Shown here in pieces: positions 567 through 19,677 of a stretch of DNA of 22,680 bases (position 1 is its first letter; every line of letters begins with the position of its first letter). The stretch is from Amoeboaphelidium occidentale (Eukaryota; Aphelidiomycota; Aphelidea). The notes below the pieces were generated by a model. The model was given only the letters and a program-made list of their open reading frames with translations, had not been told where the DNA came from and ran no database searches. The DNA lies in contig JALGPX010000124.1 of NCBI GenBank assembly GCA_023515795.1, forward strand, positions 10,124 to 32,803, given 5' to 3'. A program made the translations under genes and the position numbers.

Positions 567-3500
567 TCACAGCACACCAGAAAATCCAGAGCTTGCCTCA
601 GATTCAGTTTTACTTTCTTTCCATGGCATCTTTCGTGTTAAGCACTCAAACAAAAGGATCGAGAAGGCAAAAATGTCACCAGCTGCCATCACTTTCGGAG
701 AATCATTCTTCCTTTCTCTGAATCTTTTAAAGCATTCCGGTGCCGCATATCTACATGACATTCCTCTTAAGTTAGCGACATTGAACGTTTTGGCTGCAAG
801 AACTTTGTCTGAAACGATATTGGTGATACCAAAATCTGTTAGTACGCAAAAGTAAATGCCATTTGCTTCGTCGCGATCAATTAAAACATTCTGAGGCTTA
901 ATATCGCAATGAATAAGCCAGCGAGCATGCATGCACATTAGTCCTCGACTTATATCTAGCATAAAGTGGGCAACCATCTTGTGACTGTAACGAAGCAGTC
1001 TCTGCTTATAAATCCAGGTGTCCAATGAACCATACAAGTAATATTTCATCAGGATACAGCATGGTACATGACAATATCCAACGATTCGAGCAATATTTCT
1101 GAACTCCTGCAACATTGTCATGATTGTGATTTCCTGATCAAAGGTCTGTTGCTGTGAAGGAGAGCATGTGTTGTAGTCAGCGTAAATCACTTTAACGATG
1201 ATATCATTATCTTCTGCTAATTCTATGCTGGATCCATGCAGAATTTCAGCGAGATAGATAGAACCAGCACCGCCTTTCCCCACCTTTTTGCGCAATCGAA
1301 ACCCAGTGGGATCGACTTCTAAGTATGCAGGCTTTGCTGCACCAAGATGTGTTGCGACTAAAGTTCCTTCAGGATCCATTACGGCTGATGTTTTCCGGTT
1401 GTGGCTCGTTGATGTGTTCTTGCTTGAGTCTCTGTCAATTATATACCTGGAATAACGCCAAACACAGACAAACATGATTAGAATCAGACTCCCCGCGACA
1501 GCAGAAATAGCTATCGCTAAGTCACTCAATCGAGAGTTCTGAAAATCAGTAATTCCTCTATCTCTTGGAACTATTGTGTCTCTTCTCAAGCTGCTCGATG
1601 TGACAACCGGAATGGTTGACCGTAGAGCTTGCCGAGGGATTACAGGATTCCAAACCAGGACAGAACCATCATTACTTGCTGAAAACAGTGACGAGTTATG
1701 AAATACTAAAGCATTGATTCTCCCTGAATGGCCCTCAAACGTATCCATAATTCTACCAGAGTCGATTTGCCACTGTTTTATCATTTTATCATCGCCAGCA
1801 GAGAACAAAACATTCTGAGTAGCAGCTATTGCTCTTATTGGACCTGTATGCCCAGGAATAGTGAATGTTCTTCTAAATATACGGACAATATGAAAGGTAT
1901 CATCCCATCGGATAATTGTGTTATCCTCCGATCCAGAATATAGGCTCCCATCGTGCTTTAACAGGCAAGTAACCACACCTTCATGCCCTGTTAATGTAAG
2001 GATAATTTTGCTTTGTCTTAGATCCCAAACCAGAATTGAGTTTGATTCGCCACCAGTGAATAGATACTTGCCCGACGATGCCATAGATACTATGGTGATA
2101 TTGAAACCCTGAAGAGCTACAACAGGAACAGAATCATTAGCATACCATAAAATAGTCTTGTTCAATGATGCGGCAAAAATCCCAGAGTCTCCGACATGAA
2201 AGCTTGAAAATCGACTATCTTGTAGTGAGATCTCATTTACCATTGAGAAATACTCAGCATTATGCCTTTGAATCTTTCCATCTAAACTGAGACTGTACAC
2301 TGTCTGATTGTGGTAACTCAGAAACGATATTTGTGTTTCAGGCTTTACGAAGTTTGCCTTGATCTTTGCAGTTTTGGAATCAAATGCATTGACAGAACCA
2401 TCTACTTGACCGACTAATACAGTGCAATTGTAAGCAACCAAGGAGGTAGATGCGCTATTTGAATCTTCCATCACTTTCACCAAATTAGAAGTGGTGAAGT
2501 CCCATTTTCGAACAGAGCCATCCATTGAAGAACTGTAAAGAAAGGAGCCTTCGACAGATAAAGCGGTTACAGAGTTAGTATGCCCTTCAAAGCTATACAT
2601 GAGCTGGTAATTATTATTAAGGTCGAGAACCCTTATTGCACCGCCCAAGAGACCGATTATTATAGCATATCCCTCTACAACAACCATCGACCCGATATGT
2701 TCGCTGCCTTTGAGTATTATTGTGAATTGCTCCGAGAAATTATTTAACCATACTGAACCATCAGCTGTAAGCAAAAAATGCCCTTCTCGTAGAATTATGT
2801 TCATTGCTGGATAGAATCCCGCAATTTTGTATTCTTGAACTATTACTCCGGTCTCTGTGCTAAATACTCGTATAAAACGATTTGCATCTCCAGCGACAAT
2901 GTACTGGTCATTGATATCCAGACCAGTGACTGCACCCGACATCGATAAGGATCTAACCAAGCTTCCTGTCTGAAGTGACCAGCAAGAGACAACTCCATTA
3001 GAGATCGCAGCGTAAAGGACGCCCTTATATATCTTCACAACGTTTGCGAGTCCGCCGCTTATGTTGATGGTCCGAAGAATGTCACCTGTGTCAGTATTCC
3101 ATAGAATAATCTTTCCGTCTGAGCCACTTGAATAGAAGGTTTTGTACACCGAATCGAAGAAAAGCGATACAACATAACTAGTATGGCCCGTTAGAATTCG
3201 CTCAAGTTCATACGATACTGGATTCCACTTCCTTATCAAATAATCGTCAGCGCCAGTAAATATGAAGCCATCCTTGCCCAATACCATAGTTCGAAGGTTT
3301 TTTCTTTGAGAATAGTAAAAACCAAGATACCAGCCAGAAAGCATATTATATCTGTAAATTATAGTGGCACTGTCCCCTGTAAATATGCGAGTACCAAATG
3401 TGGTCATGGACATAATTTCGCTTCCTGATACATCAAGAAATCTGTCAAAAGCAAACTTATTATCTTCCCACTTAAACCTTGCCAGTTTTGTATCCGATGA

Positions 3501-4339
3501 AGCATAGAGAAAGCCACTGTAGTAAGTCAAGAATTTAATCGGTTTGCTCACAATCCCTGTGATTAGATCTTGTCTTTGCCCTGAAATTGTATTCCAAACG
3601 ACTATGGAACCGTCATCACAACCGCATACCAAAAACTCATTGAAGGTAGTTAAAGCATTTGTGTTTGACAAATAGTAAATAGAATTAGGATTTTGTTGTG
3701 CAGTGGAGATATCAAACTTTCTAACAGATTTCTCTGAATCATCTATAGCTGCAGAATACAAGAAACCTCCGATAATAGCCAAACCTGTAACTGGCCTTTT
3801 GTGCCCAAAGTAACCAGTAATGAATCTGTTCGTAGCAAGATCCAAACGGCGTATTGAATTATCCCTGCAACCATAGAAGATCGAGTTCTCGTGAAACAAT
3901 GATACTTGACATTGATCAGGAGCAGGATTCCTGATGCGCGCAAGTATCGCACCCGTACTCAAATCCCACACAACAACATTGCCATCATCTGCGGATGAAT
4001 ACAGTTTGTCATCCTTCAAGTGAAGCGTGCGCACAAAACTCGTATGACCTAAAGCTTCAGTAAATACAAACAGCAGACAAACCTCTCAATGTTCTTACGA
4101 CCTCTCCAGTTAAGATCACTCTTTCGATGATATCATTACTCGCAACCGAATAAAGATACTCACTGTTGGCAGCCAATGCAAATACATCGACAGCATATTC
4201 TGTTTCAAGGTCAATTGCATGGTTAAAACTTACTTTGTATCAATAAACTTTTTTGATGTTCGGTTCCTTTAGTCGGATGGACTAGAAGAACCCACAATAC
4301 AGATAGAACCCAGGTACTGAAGCCAAAACTTGTAGCCAT
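567..4339 (-). CDS. Receptor-like protein kinase with signal peptide, WD40 repeats and one TM segment
   Basis: Joining exons 4339-4234, 4199-4083 and 4048-567 gives about 1,234 residues. The ATG at 4339 starts a clear signal peptide (MATSFGFSTWVLSVLWVLLV). Splicing the second intron restores a WD40 blade, LRGHTSFVRTLHLKDD, which supports both introns. Many WD40-like blades follow (GHT/GHEG...VWD/W), enough for two propellers. A TM helix lies near residues 912-935 (plus 1450-1520). The kinase domain then shows a Gly loop (VGKGGAGSIYLAE), VAIK-type Lys (IIVKVIYAD), catalytic loop HCDIKPQNVLID, DFG (LTDFGI), APE (SCRYAAPE) and the subdomain IX Asp (GDIFAFSILLFE). Subdomains X-XI are missing: the frame stops at TGA about 20 residues after KMPW. 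Predicted topology puts the propellers outside the cell and the kinase inside. The natural end may use further introns, or the gene may be truncated. Confidence 0.85.
4049..4082 (-). other. Intron 2 of the WD40 kinase gene (34 nt)
   Basis: Donor GTTTGT, acceptor GCTTTAG, with TTACTGA as possible branch site. Splicing yields LRG|HTSFVRTLHL, a textbook WD40 strand start, and removes an in-frame stop. Confidence 0.85.
4200..4233 (-). other. Intron 1 of the WD40 kinase gene (34 nt)
   Basis: Donor GTAAGT, acceptor GAAACAG. A TTAAC or TTGAC element could serve as branch point. Removing it joins the signal-peptide exon in frame to sequence leading into the first WD40 blade. Confidence 0.8.
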
Positions 4340-14361: not shown

Positions 14362-16497
14362 CTAAGAATCGTAGAAGCGGATCATTGAGTTCCTATAATC
14401 AGCAGCAGACTGCGATTCTAGTATGGATGATTCGTCAAACTTTCCACACGTCGAAATGCATCTTAAAACACCTTCAGCATTTATCAAAGCATGAACACCA
14501 CAGTCAAAATCATTTGGTTGCTGGCATACTGGGAATACTCTTGTTTTAAAGTCTTTCTGATAAATATCTCTAATAGCATCAAGTACAGTTCTTGTCAAGG
14601 TCCTTCCCGGAGATTCACAATCGGGAGCTTTCGATAAAGAATCAAGTTCGTACATAATGCAGTCGGTATAATCGATCACAAGAGTAATCCAATGATTAGT
14701 ATCAAGAAGAACACCAACAGCCTACCTATACCCTCCATGTTGCTTGGATTTTCGACCCTCTTCGATGTATAGCCTAACTTTTTCCATGCTGAATGATGTC
14801 TTGTTGTGATTGCATATAATAGGCTGGGCAAATGGAAGAATAATTGATATATCTTTCCTGGCTTCTTCGCTTAGCTGCGCAGCGAGACTAAACGTTATGC
14901 AAAATATAATAAATGCTTACTGTTCAAGATAAGTTTCAATAATATCGCTTCTCAACCAACCTGATGGCGCCTTGAGGTCGTTCAAAGCATCAGAACTAAC
15001 TATCGGAGACTTAACAATATTACCATCTTCCACATTTTCCTCATCAGAATCCTTGTTGATAATTTCAACATTGAAAGAAGGCTCCATGTTGGCAGACAGA
15101 TCCAAATTGTGATTGCTATCTTGTTTAGTGAATAATACAGGCTTAACGTCATTAGCAGAGCCATGAACAACCGGAATATCTGAACTCTTTTCCTGTCCGA
15201 ATTCTTGTAGATTCACCGCATCGAGGTCTACTCTTTGAACAATTTCACCAGACTTTAAAGGCGCAGAAAGATTATTTGTAGTTGAAATTGCCAATTCCAT
15301 CTTCTGCTCTTCATGATCCTTCTTTCTTGTTTTAAGATTATTCAAATGATCTTTCAACTGATGAAGGAAACTTTTCAACTCTGGATTATTAAGATTATAC
15401 GCCAAACTCCAATCGAACTCAGAAGGAATGTGCTTTTCAACGGCTTTTGCTCCACCAAGAACATCAAATATCAATGAAATTTTCTTTCCACTACAAATAT
15501 GTTTAGTCAGTAGAGAAACTCTGACGTCAACAAAAGATGGGTCTGTTACCCTGTTAATTTTGGCGTAAAGACCGAACACCGTTCTCATTTCTTCTTGTAA
15601 TTTACACCCTCTTGTAATAGCAATATGTTGTGAAAGATAGAATACTTCAAGCATGTAAAATGCTTGCTTTCGAACCAACTGTTGGGTCTCAATCGTGCAT
15701 GATGAAACTAAAGTATCCCAATAAAGCACTTTTCTAAGCTGAATATCTTCAATAAAATGCAATCGAGGATCTTCTTCACTGGTACACTGCAACTCGTGAT
15801 GACTAATTACGGTATCATTCGAACCACATTCAAAGTCTATAATTGACTTCATTAACTTTTTAACAGTAGCTGTCGTTTCGATACTATCATTCTCTGGGAT
15901 AATAGTATTGCCAATGTCTTGCTGTATTTTTAATTTTACACATGAATATTCTAAAGACTCAGCACTTATATCATCCAATTTGCGCTTATTGGTATCATCA
16001 TAATGGGTCCCTGGGGTATGCGGCAATATTTCTAAAGTGTTTTTATCAAGAAATGAAGGTTTGACAGCGGATTCTGTAGTAGAATCTTTCCAAGTAACCG
16101 GGAAGAAATCATCACGCACCTCACCATTAACTGTATTATCCTGAATATCAATCTTTTCTTTGAACCCGGTTTTTGTAGTTGCTTTATCAAGGTTCTTATT
16201 TTCAGACGTTTTGGTTTGATGCTCTTTGCTCTTAGAAGGAGCTCCTTGTAGGCCAGCGAAAGATTGCATTCCGTTATCACGCACAACTCTTCTCTCATTC
16301 AGCCTATATTTGTCTCTTTTGATTCTGCTAATAAACTCTTCCCTGTTCTCTCTGTACTTATCGAAATTGTCCAAGAGCCAATTCCCTCCAGTAACCGCCT
16401 AATTGGAGCTGCTTTTAGCCATGAATTCTTCAACTTTTACCCACGCTTCCCTCAGTAATCTCATTTCAAAATTATTTCCCTCTGGAACAGTAGTCAT
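14362..16497 (-). CDS. Ulp1/SENP-type cysteine protease (peptidase C48), with two in-frame TAG codons
   Basis: Exons 16497-14921 and 14887-14362 give 701 codons. The C48 signature is complete: start of the domain GWLRSDIIETYLE, catalytic His in NHWITLVID (His codon 14692-14694), Asp in YELDSLS, oxyanion Gln in PVCQQPNDFDCGVHAL and nucleophile Cys in DCG (codon 14500-14502). The intron at 14888-14920 joins YLE to the rest in frame and removes a TAA. Two TAG codons interrupt the model: at 16399-16401 (MAKSSSN-TAG-AVTGGNWLLDN) and at 14722-14724 (KQHGGYR-TAG-AVGVLLDTNHW). The second lies inside the protease domain with good coding on both sides. Such enzymes cut SUMO or related modifiers. The roughly 450-residue N-terminal region is hydrophilic and unrecognised. 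The gene may be dead, may use an unusual intron at the first TAG (GTAAAA...AATTAG, 42 nt), or may be read through. Confidence 0.7.
14888..14920 (-). other. Intron in the Ulp1-like gene (33 nt)
   Basis: Donor GTAAGC, acceptor CGTTTAG, branch-like CATAACG. Its removal joins GWLRSDIIETYLE to the rest of the C48 domain in frame, and its size matches the two kinase introns. Confidence 0.75.
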
Positions 16498-16638
16498 AAT
16501 TCTTTCAATTAAAATAATTAAAAACCGTTGGCTGGTATTTAAAACGCACAAATCGTTAGAGGTCGAGCGATGCAAAAAAAAGGTTCCCAGAATGGCACAA
16601 TCTGATCAATCGATACATTCTTTTCCAACAAAGTCCTT

Positions 16639-16644
16639 TTTATT
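16639..16644 (-). terminator. Poly(A) signal AATAAA of the AlkB-like gene
   Basis: AATAAA starts 4 nt after the TAA stop (16649-16651) on the minus strand, the same tight arrangement seen in the other genes. Confidence 0.55.
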
Positions 16645-16648
16645 GCAG

Positions 16649-17554
16649 TTACATTGACAGGTTGATGTCAAAAATTTCGCCTGCTTTCTTTTGTCTGTCG
16701 TAGTAAAATCGGAACGTTATGGACATGCGTGTTTCATTTGGGTTGTATGGAACACGTAAAACTTCTTTAACTCTTTTGGCAACATTTTTTAACTGAGTTC
16801 CACAAGTCTGTACGCCATGATAGAACTTAAATCTAGATGCACCTGAAATGACATATAAATCACCAGGTCCAAGCCACAAACAAAACGTTTTATCTTTGGC
16901 GGATTGCGATTCTGAAAAAACTATGAAGCCACCTCCCGATAATATCAAGTTTACCACAATATCTCCATACCCGTCATTTGTAATAGTGTCTTTATGAAAT
17001 GTCAAGCCAGACTTGCAGCAAGCGTTAATATTTACGCTGATTAACTTTAATTGTTCTAAATCAACATTTCCGTGTCTACTAAGGCTGCTAATGACCTTGT
17101 CAGTTAAGCTGTTCAGCCACTCAATGGATCCGCGTGGATATGGCTCAGTTACTGCGTAGTTTGATAGTTTAACCTTTCTGTTCCGCTTGTACTCTCTATA
17201 ATTCTCAGCGATTCTGTCAGTCCACAGGAATGCCTTAGCAAACTTTGTAGAATAGGCATTATTCCAGGATTTCCAGAGTAATAAATGCCAAATTTCCTCT
17301 ACCTTGTCCATAATTTCCTGCTAAAATTGATCGAAGGACTCATACTCAAAACAATTGGTATACCAAAACAATCCATTCATATTCCATTCCTGAGTTAGCT
17401 CCAAATCGCCCTGAATTAATGCATACTTCGGGCTTAGTTTTCCAAAAGAATGATTGTGGTCTTCCTCCTTCCATTGAATTATCTTTTCATTATAGCAAAG
17501 ACCCTTTTTATTTTCAGTTCCATAGTGCTCTTTACAAATTCTGCCGGAATTCAT
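16649..17554 (-). CDS. AlkB-like Fe(II)/2-oxoglutarate dioxygenase, with one in-frame TAG
   Basis: The catalytic core is complete: HxD in LTFHKDT (His codon 16994-16996, Asp 16988-16990), distal His in FYHGV (16817-16819), and RMSITFR, which fits the AlkB-specific RxNxTxR motif that binds 2-oxoglutarate and lines the active site. NINACCKSGLTFHKD also fits the AlkB N-Y...H.D region. AlkB enzymes oxidatively remove alkyl groups from nucleic acids, some from proteins. The ATG at 17311 gives 220 residues. The same frame, however, is open upstream to an ATG at 17554, broken only by TAG at 17321-17323; that part reads NGLFWYTNCFEYESFDQF-TAG-QEIMDKVEEI, like the 'GLxYxPxFLxxEE' N-terminus of AlkB. 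No phase-0 intron donor exists upstream, so the TAG is either a nonsense change or is decoded. Substrate is unknown. Confidence 0.75.
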
Positions 17555-17670: not shown

Positions 17671-18648
17671 CTACGCTGGTGGAGACTGCACAAGTAAATA
17701 TGCGAGCATAATCACCTGTCTTTTACCACCATTTGCATTCAAATCCAAGAAAACGTGTCTGATATTTCGTGCAGCGTTAATGTCCCTGTTCCAAACAGTT
17801 AAGCAATCTGAATTGCAGACTTTAACCGCCCAAAACTTTGTCTGTTTCAACTCATGTAAACAGAAGGAACATAACTTGCTGGTATTGTGCTCGTTGACTA
17901 ATCTTGCTCTGAAACGCTTCTTCAACTCTTGGAACAGGTGCTTATTAGGAGTGGGAGGGTTTCCTCTAGAACAAGGATTGAAACTGGCTCCACCGTATGC
18001 TATCACAACATCTTTTCTTGAACCAGCCAATGTCTTCGCCAACGAAGCGTAAGCCTTCTGTCTTTTGATTCTAGTCTTCCAACGCAAACGTCTCCATTTC
18101 ATTTCGGAATAAAAATCCAGCAATGCACCAGCATGATCAAAGAAAGCAAGCATGTGTAACAAGTATGATTCCATGTTGAAACAACAAGCTGTAGGAAAAG
18201 TTGACTGAACAAGTCTCAACTCAGGATTCATGCCAGTCCATGAAGCAGTTTGTTTGGCAGAGAAAGTGGCGCCAGAGATTTCCCGCCAGTGTTTCGTTGT
18301 ACACTCAAAGTTGTCTTTTTTCTCGTCGCCCCAATTGGCAGTGAATAAAGACTTTCTCCCAGGATCCAATGAAACAACACGAGTTTCCTCACCAATAACC
18401 AAAGGATGATACTTGTCAGACTCATCGTAACCATAATCGGTCAGAACAGATGTAACAGCAGGCTTCAACAAGTGAACAGATACTTTAAGCCCATTTGTTG
18501 TGACAGAGTACGCAAACCGCTTGTTCTCAGTAGTGACTGAGCCGATATCAAACACTTTATGCCACCAGTAACTTGCAAAGGTCCTGAATATTGCCTTGTT
18601 TGGTAGATCCTTCTGTTGGTGATACGTGATTGAAGCAACCAGCGTCAT
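17671..18648 (-). CDS. Fanzor RNA-guided nuclease, N-terminally truncated
   Basis: 325 residues from the ATG at 18648. YWWHKVFDIG...TNGLKVSVHL is the block that precedes RuvC-I in Fanzor proteins. RuvC-I Asp is in VVSLDPGRKSLF, and RuvC-III Asp in NRDINAARNI. The zinc ribbon is KLCSFC...KVCNSDC. The usual RuvC-II Glu position (VVIAYGGASF) has no Glu, while NEHNTSK before the zinc ribbon does, which agrees with the relocated catalytic Glu described for Fanzors. Known Fanzors have 150-300 more residues at the N-terminus (guide-RNA and target recognition); here an in-frame TAA stands just upstream of the ATG, so that part is lost or encoded elsewhere. The stop is TAG, and the frame runs 11 codons further to TAA. 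No guide (omega) RNA could be identified by eye. Confidence 0.85.
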   Translation of the reverse strand: MTLVASITYHQQKDLPNKAIFRTFASYWWHKVFDIGSVTTENKRFAYSVTTNGLKVSVHLLKPAVTSVLTDYGYDESDKYHPLVIGEETRVVSLDPGRKSLFTANWGDEKKDNFECTTKHWREISGATFSAKQTASWTGMNPELRLVQSTFPTACCFNMESYLLHMLAFFDHAGALLDFYSEMKWRRLRWKTRIKRQKAYASLAKTLAGSRKDVVIAYGGASFNPCSRGNPPTPNKHLFQELKKRFRARLVNEHNTSKLCSFCLHELKQTKFWAVKVCNSDCLTVWNRDINAARNIRHVFLDLNANGGKRQVIMLAYLLVQSPPA

Positions 18649-18669: not shown

Positions 18670-19677
18670 TTTGTCCATCTACAATGGCTTCATCATCTCC
18701 AACAACAGCACCTGACCAACAAAGAAGTTGTTGATTTTGAAAGTTTTACATGGAAGACATCACAGAAACTGAATTTTGATTCTATTCCTACTTTAACAGC
18801 AGAAGAAGCAAAATCCACTTGGTTTGTTGGTATTGATGTTGGGCAAACGTTTGCTGTTGGAGTTTGTGCGAAGAACGCAGGTCTGGGAGTTGTACGAAAT
18901 CTGGCTGTAAAATCTAAAGCGCTGCGCATTCCACAGAAGAGATTTCAAAAGTATCTGGCTGAAAAGAAGAACAAGTTTGATGGCTGCTTTGAGGCGGAAA
19001 GGGATATGACTCGAAAGCCCAATGAAACTCTTACAGATTTCGCAAAACGATGGTTGCAAAAGTACTGCGATTTATATCCTCTGTATAACAGCAAAGCAAT
19101 GAAGAAAAGAAAGTGGGATTTAGAAAGGGCAATCGAAGCTGAGTTCACAATCGCTGTTAATTCTATTATGAAAATGGTTGACAAGAAGATTTCTAGAAAG
19201 GTTTCAACGAAGTGTCGCAGTAAATACATATTTGCTGTTGGCTCAAGTGACGTGCAAGGAAGTGACAACATTCATACTGCATTTGGAACCTTTCTCGTGA
19301 AAAAGCTGCAAAGTCTTGGTTATCTTGTTGTTACAGTAGACGAAGACTTCACTTCTCAGAAATGTCCTCGATGTTGTTCTCAAAGTGAAGCTGTGTGTAT
19401 GAGAGTCAAATACTGCCGCACTCGTCACCAATACTTTCACAGAGATGTTATGGCTGGAGAAAATATGATCAATATTGTAAAAGGTTTGGCGGTGGATGGC
19501 ATAAGGCCCGAGTATTTGTGCAGAAAACCTCCAGATAATCCCGAAGTTGGTGATAGTAATGATTCTGGTGATGAGACGATCCATGCGCAAACTGAAACAG
19601 ATCAGAGTACTCGTATCTCCTCCTACAGAATCTTAACAAGATCACAGAAGCGGCTTGACAAGTCCGCACAAAAGTAA
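18670..19677 (+). CDS. Second Fanzor, different subfamily, 5' end broken
   Basis: The frame is open from 18670 (after TAA at 18667-18669) to TAA at 19675-19677. RuvC-I Asp is in WFVGIDVGQTFAVGV, a Glu in VTVDEDFTSQKCPRC, and RuvC-III Asp in FHRDVMAGENM; the zinc ribbon is CPRC...YCRTRH, where His may replace the fourth Cys. The first in-frame ATG (19006) lies after the RuvC-I Asp and so is not the true start. An ATG at 18684 begins MASSSPTTAPDQQ in another frame and stops after 16 codons; a frameshift there would join it to NKEVVDFESF. The N-terminal recognition lobe is absent. It differs clearly from the minus-strand Fanzor in motifs and length between RuvC-I and the ribbon. The C-terminus is acidic and Ser/Thr-rich. 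It is probably a decayed copy. Confidence 0.8.
   Translation, partial: FVHLQWLHHLQQQHLTNKEVVDFESFTWKTSQKLNFDSIPTLTAEEAKSTWFVGIDVGQTFAVGVCAKNAGLGVVRNLAVKSKALRIPQKRFQKYLAEKKNKFDGCFEAERDMTRKPNETLTDFAKRWLQKYCDLYPLYNSKAMKKRKWDLERAIEAEFTIAVNSIMKMVDKKISRKVSTKCRSKYIFAVGSSDVQGSDNIHTAFGTFLVKKLQSLGYLVVTVDEDFTSQKCPRCCSQSEAVCMRVKYCRTRHQYFHRDVMAGENMINIVKGLAVDGIRPEYLCRKPPDNPEVGDSNDSGDETIHAQTETDQSTRISSYRILTRSQKRLDKSAQK

Follow-up and report, generated by a model that had tools for sequence, protein, structure and literature searches.

Several kinds of gene are known in which a stop codon stands inside an otherwise continuous coding sequence. Nuclear codes with UAG as a sense codon have been described (PMC5304391, PMC11687900) and, as far as the available parts of those two papers go, the locus reported here is like them in carrying in-frame TAG within coding sequence, and unlike them in that TAG still terminates genes and that no constant residue corresponds to the three sites. 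Editing of UAG to UGG affects PUK1 and 69 other genes of Fusarium, in exons annotated as introns, and the edited A's favour hairpin loops, according to the part of the article available (PMC4817773). The locus resembles the PUK1-like genes of Fusarium graminearum, as that same part presents them, in that only UAG interrupts, that gene models bridge the stops with introns and that the sites fall in predicted hairpin loops. It differs in having K and Y at two of the sites in its paralogue, in being known from DNA alone and in belonging to an aphelid rather than to a filamentous ascomycete.

The third comparison is with young pseudogenes of duplicated genes, which are familiar from general knowledge. 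Here too there is an open paralogue, point stops fall at unrelated residues and dN/dS is raised in a recently shared tract, whereas there are as yet no frameshifts and the AlkB core still looks constrained. It is to this ordinary class that the case probably belongs, with three nonsense point mutations in one of two AlkB and Ulp1 gene pairs, a copy that is losing function.

The interrupted gene pair and its paralogues

The window, by which is meant the whole 22,680-nucleotide stretch that was analysed, from a contig of the alga-killing aphelid Amoeboaphelidium occidentale, carries an AlkB-like and an Ulp1-like gene side by side on the minus strand. They are interrupted by TAG at 17323-17321, 16401-16399 and 14724-14722, termed here TAG1, TAG2 and TAG3 (Table 1). 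An earlier note, made from the sequence of the window, had placed three in-frame TAGs at exactly these positions and had claimed that neither TAA nor TGA breaks the coding outside a 33-nt intron. Both statements hold for the AlkB and the Ulp1 frames, which are otherwise open. The intron, in the Ulp1-like gene, reads GTAAGC...TTTAG (14920-14888).

Table 1. Features of the interrupted gene pair (positions in the window)
Feature	Position	Strand	Remarks
AlkB N-terminal coding block, upstream of TAG1	17324..17500, upstream end approximate	-	counterparts in C170, C146 and C140
TAG site 1 (AlkB)	17321..17323	-	paralogues: K (C170), R (C146), K (C140)
AlkB-like 2OG-Fe(II) dioxygenase core ORF, 220 aa	16649..17311	-	first ATG past TAG1 (ATG at 17311); PF13532
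Ulp1-like gene exon 1	14921..16497	-	C170 counterpart MP638_002736
TAG site 2 (Ulp1 exon 1)	16399..16401	-	Y in C170; would-be acceptor of candidate 42-nt intron 16440-16399
Ulp1-like gene intron, 33 nt	14888..14920	-	same position and length in C170; spliced in NCBI models P0002 and P0003
Ulp1-like exon 2, C48 catalytic region	14362..14887	-	terminator TAG 14364-14362; PF02902
TAG site 3 (Ulp1 exon 2)	14722..14724	-	ten codons upstream of catalytic His codon 14694-14692; W in C170
Tract 89.7% identical to C170	13443..15507	-	Ulp1-like 3′ half and non-coding flank; suggests recent duplication or gene conversion

The hallmark of AlkB-like 2OG-Fe(II) dioxygenases is HxD...H with R...R. The AlkB core, which scores 37.3 bits against PF13532 (cut-off 31.2), has the HxD, the distal His and the R...R, and these residues are invariant across four paralogues. 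A search by sequence for a relative of the AlkB protein with a solved structure found none. C48 peptidases such as Ulp1 have a His-Asp-Cys catalytic triad, and in the window gene this centre is located 3′ of TAG3, in a stretch that scores 25.5 bits with PF02902; the Ulp1-like protein of C170 scores 35.3 bits and gives a weak match to the yeast Ulp1 structure 1euv (E 0.0025). Protein relatives at E <= 1e-3 are A. occidentale records only (1, 2 and 2 matches). A phage origin of AlkB was rejected, with zero matches in phages, and a viral one was set aside too, none of 18 pattern-matching stretches in viral contigs encoding a relative. Directly upstream of AlkB two divergent TnpB/Fanzor-like ORFs with a Cas12f1-like TNB domain (PF07282) lie head to head, at 17671-18648 on the minus strand and about 18720-19677 on the plus strand.

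Genome searches, which covered 11.3 Mb in 204 contigs as part of the published 13.6 Mb assembly, gave four AlkB loci: that of the window and those on contigs C170 (65% identity), C146 (38%) and C140 (39%). The C170 locus has the same AlkB and Ulp1 pair (proteins MP638_002740 and MP638_002736). The 3′ half of Ulp1 is much more alike in the two copies, its non-coding flank included, than is 16226-17390, which is 68% identical, and this difference points to recent sharing of the 3′ part, through conversion or duplication, superimposed on an older duplication event.

The C170 copy is open at all three sites. The residues aligned with the TAGs in homologues, which the earlier note had proposed to examine, are neither Gln, as it had thought tolerable, nor any other single amino acid. 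For site 1 they come from a four-way AlkB alignment, in which the column is less sure for C146 and C140 than for C170, these distant copies being weakly alike there; for sites 2 and 3 they come from the single paralogue in C170. We infer that the TAG state is derived, and this is best supported at site 1, where the two further paralogues are aligned.

The AlkB gene of C146 (locus L044, C146:17000-26999) adjoins a gene weakly like a part of the Ulp1-like protein (19% identity, residues 236-387), and a genome search with the C48 stretch gave matches in C170 and in the window's own contig, C185, only. From these two observations, the AlkB/Ulp1 association may predate the protease part, or else a loss of the protease may have taken place. 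In the C140 AlkB gene the N-terminal block and the core are in two overlapping frames, as after a frameshift, on the minus strand near the region of site 1 (about 3369-3402 of locus L047, C140:44500-49500).

Divergence of the two copies and the all-TAG pattern

With the window holding one of two paralogous AlkB and Ulp1 pairs of A. occidentale, each in-frame TAG would have arisen independently in this copy, by a point mutation to a stop. TAG2 and TAG3 would truncate the Ulp1-like product upstream of the protease centre, which makes it most likely that the Ulp1-like gene has recently become a pseudogene; its premature stops precede the catalytic residues and its paralogue is open. TAG1 would strip the N-terminal block from AlkB. 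Since an ATG that follows after three further codons opens a 220-aa frame with all the catalytic motifs, the gene may still yield AlkB in a shorter form. We infer both the loss of Ulp1 function and translation from the downstream ATG.

Comparison of the window with C170 gives a dN/dS for AlkB of 0.13 at a dS of 1.76 (247 codons), while for the 25 AlkB codons adjoining TAG1 dN is 0.28 and dS is saturated. For Ulp1, dN/dS is 0.27 from TAG2 to 15400 and 0.62 in the converted 3′ coding part (p 0.045 for dN below dS), the latter dividing into 0.74 between 15400 and TAG3 (p 0.33) and 0.42 past TAG3 (p 0.046). Divergence in the shared tract is 9.2% in Ulp1 coding sequence (92/1002 bp) and 8.4% in the flank (77/916; Fisher p 0.57), with zero indels in the coding part and four in the flank, all these changes being counted for window and C170 jointly and not assignable to one copy. 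Such divergence in the 3′ part of Ulp1 is what one constrained and one free copy, mixed, could give, and the ratios below 1, for this part as a whole and past TAG3, together with its freedom from indels, suggest that some constraint may remain, in either copy.

Relative to C170, neither AlkB nor Ulp1 in its 5′ part has a frameshift, even at a dS near 1.7. Nor does the window copy of AlkB show acceleration: where C146 and C140 agree there are 6 window-only and 5 C170-only changes (51 residues are kept by both), and with C146 alone as outgroup 10 and 17. The test for relaxed constraint in this copy, with two outgroup paralogues, thus came out against it. Young pseudogenes by chance, an option of the earlier note, is the best supported of those it named, the support being stronger for Ulp1 and weaker for AlkB.

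The earlier note had also expected random decay to yield TAA and TGA. Counted over the C170 copy, the opportunities for a one-step nonsense change stand at TAA:TAG:TGA = 183:149:114, and the probability of three TAGs is 0.037 and of three stops alike 0.12 (0.041 and 0.12 with transitions weighted double). At a chance of about 4%, or 12% for any single stop type, the all-TAG pattern is mildly unusual only and needs no special mechanism, and with three events the expectation is a weak argument. The accompanying statement that the other genes lack an internal TAG over about 4,800 codons is partly circular because ORFs are found as stop-free runs. What counts against three nonsense changes in a decaying copy is the kept frame, the unaccelerated AlkB, the dN/dS below 1, the all-TAG probability of about 0.04 and an excess of hairpin-loop placement described below.

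UAG as a terminator, read-through and editing

UAG is an ordinary stop codon in A. occidentale. Among 69 open runs of at least 150 codons, some of which may be non-genes, 32 are closed by TAA, 27 by TGA and 10 by TAG (129,789 usable bases from the window and 32 loci, of which L045 is all N, with overlapping loci counted once). TAG also ends a 499-aa ORF of the window and a Fanzor-like ORF. It is the terminator of the two Ulp1 copies as well, but with a TAA one codon past it, so that taken alone these ends are weak evidence for termination.

Another option of the earlier note was that the genes come from a source in which UAG is sense. The proposal is considered here both for such a foreign source and for A. 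occidentale itself, with Gln as an example of the amino acid. Only the all-TAG pattern favours it. At the three sites the paralogue, which is in the same genome, shows K, Y and W in place of the TAGs, and TAG functions as a terminator; on the paralogue residues and this use of TAG a sense UAG was rejected as barely credible. A tRNA with a CUA anticodon was absent from the 30 of 39 tRNA matches that were read, introns allowed (63 of 546 first-look candidates in the partial assembly were scored), which is weak evidence in the same direction, and the proposal is left unsupported. Two family searches of the partial assembly for eRF1 gave one place, read as Pelota-like, and eRF1 itself did not turn up.

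Read-through, likewise an option of the earlier note, or a tolerated leaky UAG would give some full protein. The constraint past TAG3 and the freedom of the converted coding part from indels are what it would explain, but with three stops spread over the two genes the losses would compound, and divergence across the converted tract as a whole looks near-neutral. We regard it as improbable.

A-to-I editing of the mRNA would make UGG (Trp) of UAG, the change described for PUK1-like pseudogenes in Fusarium. It accords with TAG being the sole interrupting stop and with the W of the paralogue at site 3. It also accords with the doubtful introns of the gene model described below, false introns having been set by automated annotation at edited sites in Fusarium (PMC4817773, available part). 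All three sites have the A of the TAG in a predicted hairpin loop when the flank is set at 25, 40 or 60, and two of the three when it is set at 30. For control TAGs, 163 exonic ones in any frame, the counts at the three flanks with controls, 25, 30 and 40, are 55/163, 47/163 and 34/163, and for the C170 counterparts 1, 0, 0 and 0 of 3 for flanks of 25, 30, 40 and 60. The predicted placement is suggestive support for editing from a post hoc test on three sites. Trp, however, fits the paralogue at site 3 only, rather than homologues at every UAG, with basic residues at site 1 and Y at site 2. A literature search for A-to-I editing in early-diverging fungi found no report, and we know of no stop-codon A-to-I editing in aphelids. 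UAG-to-UGG editing of these mRNAs is highly improbable. Its stage-specific form, or some other programmed read-through, with full AlkB and Ulp1-like proteins made at one life stage only, is a distinctly improbable proposal as well; if true, stop-codon recoding would extend beyond filamentous ascomycetes, into a close relative of Fungi.

Short introns that end in TAG

Lone in-frame TAGs are common in this genome because its short introns end in TAG. The 15 introns considered (14 delimited by our own reading or kept from a paralogue, 1 from an NCBI model) are 33-44 nt long and all end in TAG. In a kinase survey, with 135 matches listed from the 123 of 318 first-look candidates that were scored, TAG was the commonest lone stop type: among the matches listed 18 have TAG only, 7 TAA only, 7 TGA only and 17 mixed types. 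The 32 matches with a single stop type were read by eye, as gene models predicted from DNA, and the 17 mixed ones left out. Among the 18 with TAG only there is no clear exonic TAG: 15 of the TAGs fall within a short intron or at its 3′ end (7 with the whole intron in the stretch and its letters checked, 8 inferred, with one end outside or unclear) and 3 are at apparent gene ends. Of the 3 known sites, 1 passed a codon-score scan meant to find further interrupted genes, which hence has no power.

For the three AlkB/Ulp1 sites the short-intron explanation applies poorly, since an in-frame span that begins with a GTA or GTG donor and runs to the TAG exists at site 2 alone (42 nt), and that span is coding in the paralogue. 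An intron at site 1 was rejected, no frame-keeping GT-AG span of 28-120 nt ending at TAG1 (one other covers it), and likewise at site 3, where the one such span that ends at TAG3 is 57 nt with donor GTTAGG. At site 2 a 42-nt intron that keeps the frame, 16440-16399, could have arisen by intronization within the exon and have TAG2 as its acceptor, with TAG1 and TAG3 as nonsense changes. The GT...TAG ends, a length that is a multiple of 3 and within the range of the 15 introns, and an NCBI model that skips the same stretch (MP638_000305) are consistent with this. Nevertheless C170 has these 42 nt as coding sequence of unchanged length, which differs by five synonymous changes; T content is 0.24 against 0.43 +/- 0.08 in the 15 introns, although one of these has 0.26; the donor GTAAAA and acceptor AATTAG depart from the commonest forms seen; and Ulp1 exon 1 has four GTA..TAG spans of 30-60 nt whose length is a multiple of 3, the candidate included. 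Such an intron is unlikely. The earlier note's suggestion of an unusual intron at one site thus has its one candidate at site 2, with the coding paralogue and the paucity of T against it.

Nonsense changes remain the preferred account of TAG2 as of the others, and the NCBI model MP638_000305 (P0003) is probably wrong, with doubtful introns and fused genes. It begins past TAG1, fuses AlkB to Ulp1 and bridges both TAG2 and TAG3. Its bridge over TAG3, 156 nt as read from P0003 (14725-14570), deletes the catalytic His, and its C48 score is 19.3, under the cut-off of 20.7. The case is a warning that an automated model here bridges apparent true nonsense changes with doubtful introns, even fusing two genes.

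The three kinase TAGs at apparent gene ends belong to WD40-kinase ORFs; in the paralogues of these ORFs the terminator near the same place is TGA (6) or TAA (1). A multi-copy family, which in the window has WD40 repeats followed by a kinase domain, is present at 567-4034 on the minus strand of the window and in loci L061-L063, L070 and L073-L078. In this family the match to the kinase profile breaks off near positions 198-214 of 263, with the terminator close by in most copies.
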